Part shown: in pieces, positions 1 to 4,087 of the stretch
Layout of the letters: each line of letters starts with the position of its first letter
Position numbering within the stretch: the first letter of the stretch is position 1
Source: Candidatus Yanofskybacteria bacterium RIFCSPLOWO2_02_FULL_45_18
GTDB taxonomy: Bacteria > Patescibacteriota > Minisyncoccia > 2-02-FULL-40-12 > GWA2-44-9
DNA: 39,934 nt
Direction: 5' to 3'
Assembly: GCA_001795795.1 (NCBI GenBank)
Contig: MGKV01000009.1
Coordinates: 7,260-47,193 of the forward strand
Notes under the pieces: model-generated
Seen by the model: the letters and a program-made list of their open reading frames with translations, nothing else
What the model was told of the DNA's origin: nothing
The model's database searches: none
Translations under genes and position numbers: made by a program

Positions 1-40
1 TTCCGCGTTGGTCTGTGTCTAGTCCGCTAATGTCCGCAGT
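1..40. repeat. Third ~11-bp repeat cluster at the window edge, inside lepA
   Basis: The first 40 bases have the same make-up and orientation as 1093-1132; both contain GT(C/T)GGTCTGTGT followed by AGTC and TCCG units. The LepA protein becomes unrecognisable exactly here, so this is probably the upstream border of a second inserted element whose body lies outside the window. Confidence 0.65.
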
Positions 41-1324
41 AGTAATAGTATCCCCGACTTTAATCTGCCCGGGGTCTTTCAGTCCGGTGGCAATGTAGCC
101 GATCTGCCCATTCTCCAAGGCCGGGCCTTGTACTAAAGCCGGAGAAAAATAACCGACCTCAAGAACTTCGGCTTTGGCTTTGGTGGCCGCCGTCATAATC
201 TTGTCGCCGTGCCTGAATGAACCGTCAAATACGCGCACAAAGGCAATGATGCCTTTGTAGGTGTCAAATGCGGAATCAAATATGAGAGCGCGGGGACTGC
301 GAGCGTCGCCATTTTCCCGTGGCGGCGGAATCCACCTGATTACATCCTCCAAAAGCTCCTTCACGCCCTGGCCGGTCTTCGCCGAAATTTTATGTATTTT
401 AACATCGGGGTCATCCAGCAAGTACTGAATTTCTTCTTCAATTTCGTCCGGGCGGGCATTGGGCAAGTCAATTTTATTTATCGCCGGAATGATGGTCAGA
501 CCTTGTTGCTGAGCCAAATGCAAGTTCGCTAATGTCTGGGCCTGTATGCCCTTAGTCGCGTCAACCAGCAAAATCGCTCCTTCAACCGCCGCTAAAGAAC
601 GGGAAACTTCGTATGAAAAGTCCACATGGCCGGGAGTATCAATCAAGTTGAGGATATAATCCTCAACTTGCGCAGACTTACGCGGACTGGACGCAGACTG
701 ACGCTGACCATCAGACGAATCCTTAATAATACGTCTGAAGGAAACATCTGTACTGCCAAAATTAACCAGCAACGCAAGATGATATTGGCAACCCTTCAGA
801 TAGCTCCAAAGTTGTTGCTCTTGCGGTCTGCCTATTTCAGGTAAGGATTTGAGTTCAACCAATACCTTGTCTTCAATAATAAAATCCGGTACATAAGTTC
901 CCACCTTTTTGTTTTCGTAGAAAACATCTAGGATCTTCTCACTTTCAAAACTTAGCCCCAGTTTTTTAAACTCTTCTACTAACGCTTTGTGGTAAACAGT
1001 TTCTTTGTGCCCCAGACCCAAAACTTTCTTGACATTAAAAACCGCCCCTCGAATTTTATATGTTAATCCTTCATACAATAATCCGCCCTCCACGTCCGTG
1101 TCGGTCTGTGTATTAGTCTGCGTTAGTCCGTGGTTCGCATGATATATCATGCGAACAGGTTGCAACTTTATCGTTATTCCCCTCTCCCGCTCCAGTTCCA
1201 TCGTGTCAAGATACTGCTCCTGCATCTTGCGTTTCTCCACTGTTCCGGTCAGCTCTAAAAACCGGTCCGCCAGAGTCGACTTTCCGTGGTCAATGTGTGC
1301 GATTATACAGAAATTTCTTATCAT
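1..1324 (-). CDS. lepA: Elongation factor 4 (LepA), partial, with an in-frame domain insertion
   Basis: Translational GTPase that acts on the ribosome (back-translocation/assembly role known for the family). The gene starts at ATG 1324 and runs off the left edge, giving about 441 residues. Visible motifs are the P-loop AHIDHGKST (residues 9-17), switch I with RERGITIK (46-53), DTPGHVDF (229-236) and NKIDLPNA. Between the strand after switch I (LQPVRMIY) and the strand leading to DTPGH (YILNLI) orthologs have a turn of a few residues; here about 160 residues intervene (63-221) with no stop and no frame change. At the left edge the protein again departs from the family after VGDTIT, reading TADISGLDTDQRG, which looks like the start of a second insertion. 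The identification is secure; whether the interrupted protein is active is unknown. Confidence 0.93.
   Translation of the reverse strand, partial: MIRNFCIIAHIDHGKSTLADRFLELTGTVEKRKMQEQYLDTMELERERGITIKLQPVRMIYHANHGLTQTNTQTDTDVEGGLLYEGLTYKIRGAVFNVKKVLGLGHKETVYHKALVEEFKKLGLSFESEKILDVFYENKKVGTYVPDFIIEDKVLVELKSLPEIGRPQEQQLWSYLKGCQYHLALLVNFGSTDVSFRRIIKDSSDGQRQSASSPRKSAQVEDYILNLIDTPGHVDFSYEVSRSLAAVEGAILLVDATKGIQAQTLANLHLAQQQGLTIIPAINKIDLPNARPDEIEEEIQYLLDDPDVKIHKISAKTGQGVKELLEDVIRWIPPPRENGDARSPRALIFDSAFDTYKGIIAFVRVFDGSFRHGDKIMTAATKAKAEVLEVGYFSPALVQGPALENGQIGYIATGLKDPGQIKVGDTITTADISGLDTDQRG
644..670. repeat. 12-bp inverted repeat at the downstream junction of the lepA insert
   Basis: The arms CAAGTTGAGGAT and ATCCTCAACTTG flank a 3-nt loop. 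The half nearer the LepA C-terminal side encodes the conserved ILNL; the other half, on the insert side, is its mirror copy. Confidence 0.9.
668..718. repeat. Cluster of ~11-bp repeats, downstream side of the lepA insert
   Basis: On the + strand this reads as repeated CGCAGACTTACG, CGGACTGGACG and CAGACTGACG units. They resemble, on the opposite strand, the units at 1093-1132. In frame they encode a Ser/Gln/Arg-rich linker just before the restored LepA sequence EDYILNLIDTPGH. Confidence 0.75.
1093..1132. repeat. Cluster of ~11-bp repeats, upstream side of the lepA insert
   Basis: Short units such as GGACTAACGCA, GACTAATACACA and GACCGACACGGA (lepA sense) follow one another with a period near 11 bp. 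The cluster is an approximate inverted counterpart of the one at 668-718, so together they behave like terminal inverted repeats around the GxxExxY domain. Confidence 0.75.
1133..1156. repeat. Perfect 24-bp palindrome at the upstream junction of the lepA insert
   Basis: The arms GTTCGCATGATA and TATCATGCGAAC are fully self-complementary with no loop. The palindrome spans LepA residues V57 to N64, so it is made partly of ordinary LepA codons and partly of the first inserted bases. Confidence 0.9.
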
Positions 1325-1345
1325 AAACTTATTCGCTTAAGTTTA
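1324..1345 (-). promoter_or_regulatory. Hairpin abutting the lepA start codon
   Basis: In the lepA mRNA sense TAAACTTA and TAAGTTTA (8-bp arms, 6-nt loop) lie directly before ATG, with the A of the ATG at the base of the stem. No Shine-Dalgarno sequence is seen. It could limit start-codon access; the function is inferred only. Confidence 0.4.
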
Positions 1346-1510
1346 TCCCAATCTATCACGCTAGTTTATACAAAATACCACGATTTTCCTGATAAATCCA
1401 GCTTAGCTCCGGTCACAAATTTTAGTTCTAAGTTTAAAAGTATTCCTTTACCCAAGAGCAAACCCATACCAGTTTTTATATCCAGCACGTTCGCAAATCT
1501 ACCAAAATCT

Positions 1511-1551
1511 GAAAAAAATAGAGGCCGTTCCCACCAAAGGCGGAAACGGCC
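1511..1551 (-). terminator. Rho-independent terminator after the DUF4012 gene
   Basis: On the - strand a GC-rich stem (GGCCGTTTCC pairing with GGGAACGGCC, one mismatch) is followed by TATTTTTTTC. A second small stem, AGTCCAA/TTGGACT, lies just before it at 1556-1576. The stretch 1325-1606 otherwise holds no convincing gene. Confidence 0.75.
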
Positions 1552-1606
1552 GAAGAGTCCAAGGGACAATTGGACTTGCAATGGCCTAAATAGCTGTTTT
1601 TGTGCC

Positions 1607-4087
1607 CTATTTAAACCCAATACTTATTAGTAGGTCCTTATCCAAAGCCATGTCTAAACTATAGAGACTGCCGATTTGACTTAATAATGGCAAAGACTTA
1701 ACAACTTGTGTTTCTTTGGAGACATCTAAAACGAACTCAAAATTATCTATCGTTAGACCGGGTTGCTTTTGCACCAGCAACTTGTAATCACTGCGTGCGT
1801 ACTCAAGCGGAATTGAGTATTCCAGTTCTACGGTTTTGGTCTCGCCCGGATTGACGATCATCCAAAAGCCAAAGACAGTTTTACCGCTTTCGCTGGTAAT
1901 ACTTACTCCTTTATCTTTTAAATATTCCCCTTTCTCTATCGCCACTAGGTCTGGATCTTGGGCAAAACCGGCATTGGCGTAATTTATCAGCGGACTGAAT
2001 GTGGCATTGGAATTGCCGACAATGTCGGAAAAAGTCGAACCGTCCGGTGCCAGCACCCGCACATAGGCCGGACTTTGCTTATTGTAAAAACCCAGAGCCG
2101 AACTGCCGCCATTATGACGACGGGTTAGAAAAATCCTGTGTTTTACCGCTCCATCCTGCATAATGGTGCTGACCTTAAGCGAAGTTGACGTCACAAGGTC
2201 GCTCTTGGAACCTCTGACATTGGCGATATTGACCATCACGGAATCAAAGTCCCCACCCGCAACTTGTCCGCCAAAACCTTTCTCAATGGCAAAATTTTCC
2301 AGCGACAGATCTTTGAAATACATCAGCACATCTTTTTGCTCAAGGCGGGTTGCCAGTATGTTAAAAATTTTCAACCAATTGCTCTGGCTGGTTGAATAAA
2401 TTCTTTTTAAAAGTTCGGGCGCTAGGTCAACCAATATCTGCTTGGGCTGAGTTCGGTTCTCTCCGTATTCAATCTGCGTTTGAAGGGATGCCAAGAAGTT
2501 GTTGCTATCCAGCACCAGTTTGTAACTAGGCAATGCCACCGGTCCGATAACATTCAGCATCTCAACTAATATTTTGGGGCTGATAGTAATAACACCGTCA
2601 ACATCACTGCCGGATTCTTTTTTGTAGAACTGGGCCGTCTTTTTGGCTGAAGCGGGAAAGTCAACGAACCAGTTGGCATCGCGCATGGCCCAGGTCGGGG
2701 TGATATGCTGTAATGGCTTGGGCGGTATGATATTTTCCTTGATCTGGCCGTCAAGATTATAGGCATCATCCACAAAAAAATCTTTTAATACGCCATCTTG
2801 AAAAGTCAATATGCCATAACTTCCCACAAAGCCGCCGGTCGGACGCAGTTCGCTGTAATTTTGGAACAACAAGAGATACCTTTTGGTGCCCTGATTGCCG
2901 ATAAGATTGGTCAGAAAGTTGGCATAACCGATGCCATCACGAGTTAAACGCTGAATCTCTGGCAACTTATTTTTAAAAGAAACAAACATTGGTCTTTTGT
3001 TTTCGGGAATCAATGAATCGTCAACATTCACCAGAAAACCCAATGCTTCTCCGATTTGCCGTTCAGCAGTTATCAAAGCATCTTTTATCGTTTGCGCTAT
3101 TCCCGCCCTCAAAACACCGCCGGCGCCAGTCGGTTCAAGCAAAGCGCCGGTTTTGGCGATAGCCTCCATGGCGTTGGACATATTCTGGCCGGCGCCGGAA
3201 ACAACACGGCCCGCCTCGGCCAAGTTCTTGGCTGACTTAAGCTTATCCGCCCCCGGCAACTCAGCCAGCAAACTGCTTATATCGGCGCTGATGAAATTCA
3301 AATTTTCGCCCGCGCGAGAAAACTCCTGATAAGCTTTGGCGAAGTCGTAAGAAGCCGAAGCAAAATTAAAAGACCTAAGGTTGCCCTCGGCATTCTCAAG
3401 ATTTTTTACCGCCGAATCTCCGTTTTTGACAACTTCGTTCTTGACGTCAAAACCGCTTTTCCAAAAATAAGTAATCCCCGCAACCACAACTGCCACCAGC
3501 AAAATGGTGGAAATTGAATTTTTAAACATCCGCGCCGGACTGCGCCGCGGCGATTTATATGATTTATTGTAAAAATCACTGACAAAAGATTCTATTTCGG
3601 AAGAGCCGACCCCAAGAGTATTTTTGACAGACGCCAAACGATTAAAACCGGGAATGTGTTCATCTTCCGAATTTTCTTCCGTTTCCGTCGGCTTGGCCGT
3701 TTCTTTAACAAGAAAAGGGACAATAAAAGATTTATCAAGCTGGGCGGCTGATAATATGCGGTGATAATAAAGACCTTCAAAATGATTATCTTTCTTACCG
3801 ACAATAGGACGCTGGCGCGGCTTGAAGCCATGGTATTTGTCAAAAACTTTGCCGCCAACTTGGGTCAGTTCCGCTTGCGAATCCAGTTTTTCATTTAGGG
3901 CTTCTTCAAATTCCCGCAAAGCAATACTCTTAGGGTCAACCGCAGCGGTTCGCCGCGCTTCAATACTGGGAATGTCAAATTCTTCATCTAAAATATCCAT
4001 CACTTTTTTCTCAACACCAAAACTTCCAGTCCGGACTGGCCTTACATCAAACATCGCCCCTAGTATCTTGTTTCCCTTTGGGGGCAT
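1607..4087 (-). CDS. DUF4012 domain-containing membrane protein
   Basis: An 826-residue protein with a cytoplasmic N-terminal ~190 residues (low complexity, acidic), one membrane segment at about 190-210 (ISTILLVAVVVAGITYFW) and a large extracytoplasmic part. The DUF4012 hallmark is clear in RYLLLFQNYSELRPTGGF followed by VGSYGILTF. Proteins of this family occur widely in CPR and Actinobacteria next to polysaccharide genes; the biochemical role is unknown. Here it is last in a run of glycan genes on the same strand, 234 bp after the GT4 gene at 4322-5461. The ATG at 4087 is supported by a TATAAT box 7 nt upstream. The gene ends in a good terminator. Confidence 0.88.
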   Translation of the reverse strand: MPPKGNKILGAMFDVRPVRTGSFGVEKKVMDILDEEFDIPSIEARRTAAVDPKSIALREFEEALNEKLDSQAELTQVGGKVFDKYHGFKPRQRPIVGKKDNHFEGLYYHRILSAAQLDKSFIVPFLVKETAKPTETEENSEDEHIPGFNRLASVKNTLGVGSSEIESFVSDFYNKSYKSPRRSPARMFKNSISTILLVAVVVAGITYFWKSGFDVKNEVVKNGDSAVKNLENAEGNLRSFNFASASYDFAKAYQEFSRAGENLNFISADISSLLAELPGADKLKSAKNLAEAGRVVSGAGQNMSNAMEAIAKTGALLEPTGAGGVLRAGIAQTIKDALITAERQIGEALGFLVNVDDSLIPENKRPMFVSFKNKLPEIQRLTRDGIGYANFLTNLIGNQGTKRYLLLFQNYSELRPTGGFVGSYGILTFQDGVLKDFFVDDAYNLDGQIKENIIPPKPLQHITPTWAMRDANWFVDFPASAKKTAQFYKKESGSDVDGVITISPKILVEMLNVIGPVALPSYKLVLDSNNFLASLQTQIEYGENRTQPKQILVDLAPELLKRIYSTSQSNWLKIFNILATRLEQKDVLMYFKDLSLENFAIEKGFGGQVAGGDFDSVMVNIANVRGSKSDLVTSTSLKVSTIMQDGAVKHRIFLTRRHNGGSSALGFYNKQSPAYVRVLAPDGSTFSDIVGNSNATFSPLINYANAGFAQDPDLVAIEKGEYLKDKGVSITSESGKTVFGFWMIVNPGETKTVELEYSIPLEYARSDYKLLVQKQPGLTIDNFEFVLDVSKETQVVKSLPLLSQIGSLYSLDMALDKDLLISIGFK

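Follow-up and report, generated by a model that had tools for sequence, protein, structure and literature searches.

A GxxExxY nuclease insert read in frame in Patescibacteria LepA: a possible homing-like element without splicing

How does lepA, the gene of elongation factor 4, come to carry a nuclease-like domain within its reading frame, and is this domain mobile? The question is raised by a stretch of 39,934 nucleotides (the window), which is part of a 627-kb Patescibacteria genome (contig C9, positions 7260–47193). A preliminary description placed an in-frame GxxExxY/PD-(D/E)XK-like insert at positions 662–1138 and took it for a parasitic or homing-type element that makes use of tolerance at the protein level and not of splicing. 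The first claim held: in a codon-by-codon translation from the ATG at position 1324, the minus-strand lepA open reading frame (ORF) is uninterrupted across the insert. The bounds become about 659–1144 when the host-copying halves of the junction hairpins are included, as is done here. The repeat arrays, the host-copying hairpins, the copies in RecG and LeuRS and the arrays without a gene were not part of that description.

This lepA is the only one in the genome, as the other matches to a LepA query are paralogous GTPases of 29–42% identity, and the genome contains a single PF13366 match. The gene continues past the start of the window but is interrupted by an assembly gap of nine Ns just left of position 1, and this gap falls inside a second, short array of repeats. 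LepAs of relatives also hold arrays at this second site (GDTIT/GYKE). In the reading direction, the insert consists of a 12-nt inverted host copy, a CGGACTAACGCAGACT-type array, the nuclease domain, an inverted array and another 12-nt inverted host copy (Table 1). Both of its junctions with lepA are perfect hairpins, both arrays read as hydrophilic linkers, and its RNA folds as a hairpin, an array stem and a hairpin (z −6.2).

Table 1. Features of the lepA locus in the window (positions count from the first nucleotide of the window).
Feature	Position	Strand	Remarks
lepA (elongation factor 4), 5' part	2..1324	-	Insert read through in frame; ORF and profile matches
Whole insert	659..1144	-	486 nt = 162 codons, without its own start or stop codon; empty site in sister LepAs
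GxxExxY / PD-(D/E)XK nuclease domain	725..1081	-	lepA residues 82-200
5' array	1085..1132	-	~10-nt units (CGGACTAACGCAGACTAATACACAGAC...), ~48 nt; translated as linker HGLTQTNTQTDTDVEGG
3' array	671..710	-	Inverted relative to the 5' array (GTCAGCGTCAGTCTGCGTCCAGTCCGCGTAAGTCTGCG); translated as linker GQRQSASSPRKSA
Left junction hairpin	1133..1156	.	Host GTTCGCATGATA, then inverted copy TATCATGCGAAC; not in 12 empty sites
Right junction hairpin	644..670	.	Inverted copy CAAGTTGAGGAT, TAT, host ATCCTCAACTTG
Second, gene-less array of the insert's unit in lepA	1..38	-	Between GDTIT and GYKE; broken by the 9-N gap just outside the window

The domain is a member of the GxxExxY family (TIGR04256/PF13366): it exceeds the curated cut-offs, its catalytic residues are intact, and its predicted fold is that of PD-(D/E)XK nucleases. 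The matches are clear for both TIGR04256 (E 9e-32, 109.9 bits against a cut-off of 35) and PF13366 (E 4.6e-31, 108 bits against a cut-off of 22), so the lack of a GxxExxY match, which would have refuted the preliminary description, does not apply. In the same profile search, the flanks of the insert score as LepA/GTP_EFTU. The motif residues GHKE..Y, PDF and ExK are all present in the insert, and all 17 in-frame copies compared share P66, D67, E77, K79 and the GxxE glutamate. Modelled alone, the domain folds confidently (pLDDT 96), and Foldseek matches this model to the PD-(D/E)XK nucleases SSO0001, lambda exonuclease, LHK-Exo and the Hjc-type resolvase ST1444. The AF2 model of a LepA fragment with the insert is of moderate quality (pLDDT 73, pTM 0.51), with residues 65–80 and 204–220 below a pLDDT of 50 and the nuclease block mostly at 80–93. 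The best sequence match in the PDB, T7 endonuclease I (E 0.039), is only a hint. The inserts evolve under constraint, with dN/dS of 0.08–0.32 in the least diverged pairs, for which it is quoted; synonymous sites are near saturation in most pairs. Conservation of the nuclease residues is shown and the nuclease fold is predicted with confidence, while cleavage is inferred.

The insert is not confined to this genome. In a PF13366 survey of 384 genomes of the class, at least ~26 matches lie in open frames of 400 or more residues, two of which (G256 and G023) are run-on fusions at the 5' end of a gene and not internal inserts. The ORFs of this survey show the LepA site filled in divergent families and a RecG site filled between the DExH and TAT motifs; Ndh, GatB, a glycosyltransferase and a transketolase-like gene contribute one case each. 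Across 84,980 species genomes, a scan returned 80 loci. The closest 53 (50–70% identity) all form part of a longer ORF and keep its frame (25 in LepA, 23 in RecG, two in LeuRS and three in others); from rank 54 down, most are stand-alone genes that stop within a few codons of the domain. The sites recur: 32 of 33 LepA copies precede LNLIDTPGH, and the RecG copies share one site between DEQHRFGV and ATPIPR. All in-gene cases derive from environmental assemblies. A chimeric assembly, the other outcome that would have refuted the preliminary description, is rejected, as more than 60 in-frame cases occur across many genomes, one of them within a single 634-kb contig. A viral carrier is likewise rejected, no close relative of the insert having been found in viral contigs.

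A glycosyltransferase-like gene (L146) carries two in-frame GxxExxY domains of different clades. In addition to the nuclease insert, the transketolase-like and Ndh genes (L063 and L076/L171) contain several more arrays in frame (RTDANLTRTNANN..., SQQESALSQQESA). One insert-bearing LepA (L123) comes from a bin labelled Nanoarchaeota and is probably a mis-binned Patescibacteria contig.

In a tree of 149 domains, 65 in-gene copies (33 in LepA, 25 in RecG, two in LeuRS and five in others) form one clade with SH-aLRT support of 97 and no stand-alone member. The LepA and RecG copies interleave, and the LeuRS pair falls among the LepA copies, but the alignment has only 122 columns and does not resolve how often the domain passed from one host gene to another. 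In-frame copies also exist outside this clade, for example in GatB and the L064 glycosyltransferase, so entry into genes probably occurred more than once.

The comparison with sister lepA genes places empty sites beside filled ones. The LepA hosts of the window's family, taken from 24 genomes, group together as a clade (support 93), in which each of the three insert-bearing LepAs adjoins empty relatives: the window's is next to L090, that of G013 is next to L094, which belongs to the same genus (support 96), and that of G004 is found among empty ones. The inserts have other neighbours. The nearest relative of the window's insert is in a Zambryskibacteria LepA, that of G013's is another Parcubacteria insert, and G004's is nearest to inserts from another family, in a different part of the phylum. 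Forcing the three family inserts into one clade costs 51.8 log-likelihood units (AU p 0.0126); in pairwise AU tests (0.062, 0.129 and 0.028) two of three miss 0.05, with a domain of about 120 columns. Over 30 genes, LepA and insert distances correlate poorly (r 0.20), and in the LepA pair L126/L078 the hosts are 10% apart and the inserts 47.5%. In the recG pair L062/L139, the insert has 95–100% DNA identity against ~80% for the host (pS 0.08 against 0.66), and the change falls close to both junctions. The insert has therefore moved relative to its host genes, and the same sites recur in lepA and recG. Of the features that define homing elements, it meets occupation of one site across many hosts, with the site left empty in sisters, and a phylogeny incongruent with that of the host gene, or insert-only transfer. 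As a separate observation, the L062/L139 alignment contains a second block of 120 nt (nt ~1319–1439) at 95–98% identity, surrounded by sequence at ~80%. It lies near a low-complexity stretch (SNFKFKISNLKLK) and is perhaps another array insert.

Among 32 LepA inserts tested, junction palindromes lie beyond nearly all shuffles at 18 left and 19 right junctions. None of 12 empty LepA sites has a palindrome arm of 7 nt or more, and chance or a property of the lepA site is rejected on this ground. The hairpins are missing in about one third of the LepA copies and in most RecG copies and are therefore not essential. Array-only inserts in L108, L109 and L111 do form junction hairpins, with differing sequences. 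In 23 LepAs with the motif Q-V/I/G-E/Q in the inner arm, Gln CAA goes with host Leu TTG in 16 and Gln CAG with CTG in seven, with no mixed case (16:0:0:7, Fisher p 4e-6; the related sequences are not fully independent), even though all four codon combinations leave the protein unchanged. This synonymous codon table is preferred to a self-versus-cross comparison of arms, which is circular for the self term. The sister inserts L086 and L120 are 16% apart and differ in their arms, each of which fits its own host. Together with the synonymous covariation, this indicates that each arm copies, in inverted form, the flank of the recipient itself. The copy may have been made when the element inserted, or template correction may have kept arm and flank in step afterwards. 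Left-side palindromes in RecG (9 of 24) are discounted as host-copied arms because native QR..AL codons can pair. Scattered left-side hairpins are found in other hosts (L064, site 2 of L144, and L146).

The array unit of the insert also occurs without the nuclease. A pattern search, on which all such counts in the source genome rest, finds it at three places in 23S rRNA, where it is IVS-like (intervening sequence), past the 3' end of 16S rRNA and in frame in thrS; these loci are what we take to be rRNA and thrS, their identities having been read from sequence. The 23S rRNA array inserts (L006, L007, L009 and L010, on contigs C4 and C7 of the source genome, G000) have ends TGTGGCTC...GAGTCACA, and their terminal hairpins are common to three different rRNA sites. 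The array beside 16S rRNA (L003, G000:C7:12022-12067) lies immediately 3' of the gene, and the thrS insert (L011, G000:C8:3970-3988) is short and in frame (SSAELRGQTRIGTQTYADQKMV). In several members of the family, gene-less arrays are likewise present at site 1 or site 2 of LepA; in L103, L105, L107, L108, L109, L111 and L112 they have other unit sequences and fill one or both loops, and some bear host-copied hairpins of 13–14 nt.

Stand-alone GxxExxY genes lie between inverted ~10-nt repeats as well: 53 of 71 score above the 95% null and 32 above the 99% null, in other phyla too. Stand-alone genes of Planctomycetota, Scalindua, Neomarinimicrobiota and others (L175–L198) are flanked by inverted CACGGATT-type repeats. 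In two genera of the family (L017 and L018), a stand-alone gene with TACGAAT array flanks is located just upstream of fusA, a recurrent intergenic site. The gene-less arrays and the stand-alone genes between repeats suggest that GxxExxY is the gene of a wider family of array elements, and the gene-less arrays in LepA loops leave room for the nuclease being dispensable for insertion.

On balance, we lean towards the insert being a non-splicing, homing-like mobile element that is tolerated at the protein level. In this reading, the element is a small PD-(D/E)XK nuclease between inverted ~10-nt repeat arrays, which would form flexible hydrophilic linkers once translated. Its ends in lepA, and in some cases in other hosts, are short hairpins, the inner arm of each being an inverted copy of neighbouring host sequence. 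As one open frame without start or stop, it would leave a host gene readable after insertion into a surface loop that tolerates it. The host gene would supply its transcription and translation as a chimera, and the host protein would presumably remain functional. The nuclease of the chimera may cut or resolve DNA at an empty allele, repair may then copy the element into that allele, which amounts to homing, and the terminal hairpin arms may be re-made from recipient sequence by snap-back copying of broken host ends. These steps are inferred. Of the second claim of the preliminary description, the parasitic or homing-type element relying on protein-level tolerance is supported by same-site recurrence, empty sister sites, movement and an intact nuclease fold; homing driven by the nuclease itself is not shown.

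The alternative that survives best, and remains possible, is that the array or hairpin DNA is itself mobile, via template switching in replication or an unseen enzyme, with the GxxExxY gene as a passenger or accessory. Gene-less arrays in frame at the same LepA site with host-copying hairpins (L108, L109 and L111), those in thrS and 23S rRNA of the source genome, and the free-standing GxxExxY genes between inverted repeats speak for it. The retention of all catalytic residues in every copy compared and the constraint on the nuclease speak against it, and a dedicated in-gene clade is unexpected for random cargo. Ordinary homologous recombination of lepA or recG segments between cells, without nuclease drive, is unlikely. 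It would also give same-site occupation and mosaic patterns, and the second high-identity block in the recG pair points to another exchange or to a second insert. However, high identity in L062/L139 stops close to both junctions, exchange at LepA amino-acid distances of 0.37–0.43 (L086/L120 and L001/L119) is improbable by plain recombination, and the hairpin arms fit each host's own flanks even between sister inserts.

Two further explanations have very little left in their favour. One ancient insertion of a domain that has a function in LepA, inherited vertically and lost many times, would agree with the one site in most LepAs and with strong sequence conservation, but host and insert trees disagree, distances barely correlate, the same clade is found in RecG, LeuRS, Ndh and the transketolase-like gene, and the AU test of the family inserts and the L062/L139 recG pair already contradict it. 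Removal of the insert at the RNA or protein level (IVS-like RNase III excision, an intron or an intein) could draw on the folded transcript and on the resemblance of the related 23S rRNA arrays to RNase III-processed IVSs (PMC4990558), but none of the clade's in-gene copies loses the reading frame in its arrays or its domain. Splicing is rejected: intron families in Rfam gave no match at E<=1 in window positions 1–2000, and no intein/Hint family is among the Pfam matches or among 25 NCBIfam matches, the flanks of the insert being arrays.

The preferred reading, a non-splicing homing-like element, has partial precedents. Rickettsia palindromic elements (RPEs; Ogata et al. 2000, PMC2229807) are also hairpin-forming selfish DNA found in frame in conserved protein genes, with related repeats in RNA genes and the host gene left open; as an in-frame palindromic insert in a protein gene, the LepA insert meets this RPE-type feature. 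An active guanylate kinase that contains an RPE, reported alongside in-frame palindromic inserts in Rickettsia (PMC2229807), is a precedent for host tolerance. RPEs are 105–146 bp long, whereas the LepA insert has 486 nt and a conserved nuclease. RPEs are not known to carry an enzyme. Recurrent occupation of a single site across a phylum and host-copied arms are not described in the passages of PMC2229807 consulted. Homing endonuclease genes of introns and inteins are likewise mobile nuclease-coding inserts at the same site in many hosts, with empty sister sites and horizontal spread. Unlike these, the LepA insert is internal, lacks intron or intein splicing and encodes a nuclease of another family, whose cleavage activity is inferred. 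In fungal mitochondria, a LAGLIDADG enzyme that shares the frame of rps3 as a fusion (PMC7902536) is a precedent for joining without splicing.

The IVSs of 23S rRNA and the rRNA insertions of the Candidate Phyla Radiation (CPR) (PMC4990558, PMC11270868) are bounded by inverted repeats, as is the LepA insert, and its array unit is also present in the 23S rRNA of the source genome. IVSs, which carry the S23/IVP protein, are cut out of RNA, whereas the lepA insert is in a protein frame and apparently retained; that the lepA copy is open in frame throughout argues against IVS-like excision. CPR rRNA insertions hold homing endonucleases, mostly LAGLIDADG or GIY-YIG enzymes, and IVS proteins, and the name GxxExxY is absent from that study (PMC11270868). 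Other GxxExxY/PDDEXK_3 members found (TIGR04256, PF13366) are small stand-alone genes, whereas the insert clade exists only inside other proteins. In the open-access literature searched (subscription papers and preprints were outside its scope), the name GxxExxY appears in only two papers and PF13366 in one, and never in a title or abstract. The insert falls in between RPE-like elements, homing endonucleases and inteins: for each of these, a defining feature is either absent from it or unsettled.

A bolder reading, which we consider worth stating but would not at present back, is that of a new class of non-splicing, autonomous "protein-resident" mobile elements. Their nuclease would act on hairpin or junction DNA, their ends would be re-templated from the target at each insertion, and their gene-less derivatives would be RPE-like elements, present in protein loops and rRNA helices all over Patescibacteria, with GxxExxY as the missing mobility enzyme of array elements.

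Mobile nucleases are known from introns and inteins, which remove themselves; here, one has made its way through a phylum while remaining part of its host proteins (LepA, RecG and LeuRS). It is a candidate for the enzyme behind the RPE-like selfish DNA of protein genes, and it offers a function for the widespread, uncharacterised GxxExxY family. The host-copied arms with their synonymous covariation are a molecular signature that makes the insertion mechanism testable, and elements of this kind are a possible source of new protein domains in reduced genomes.
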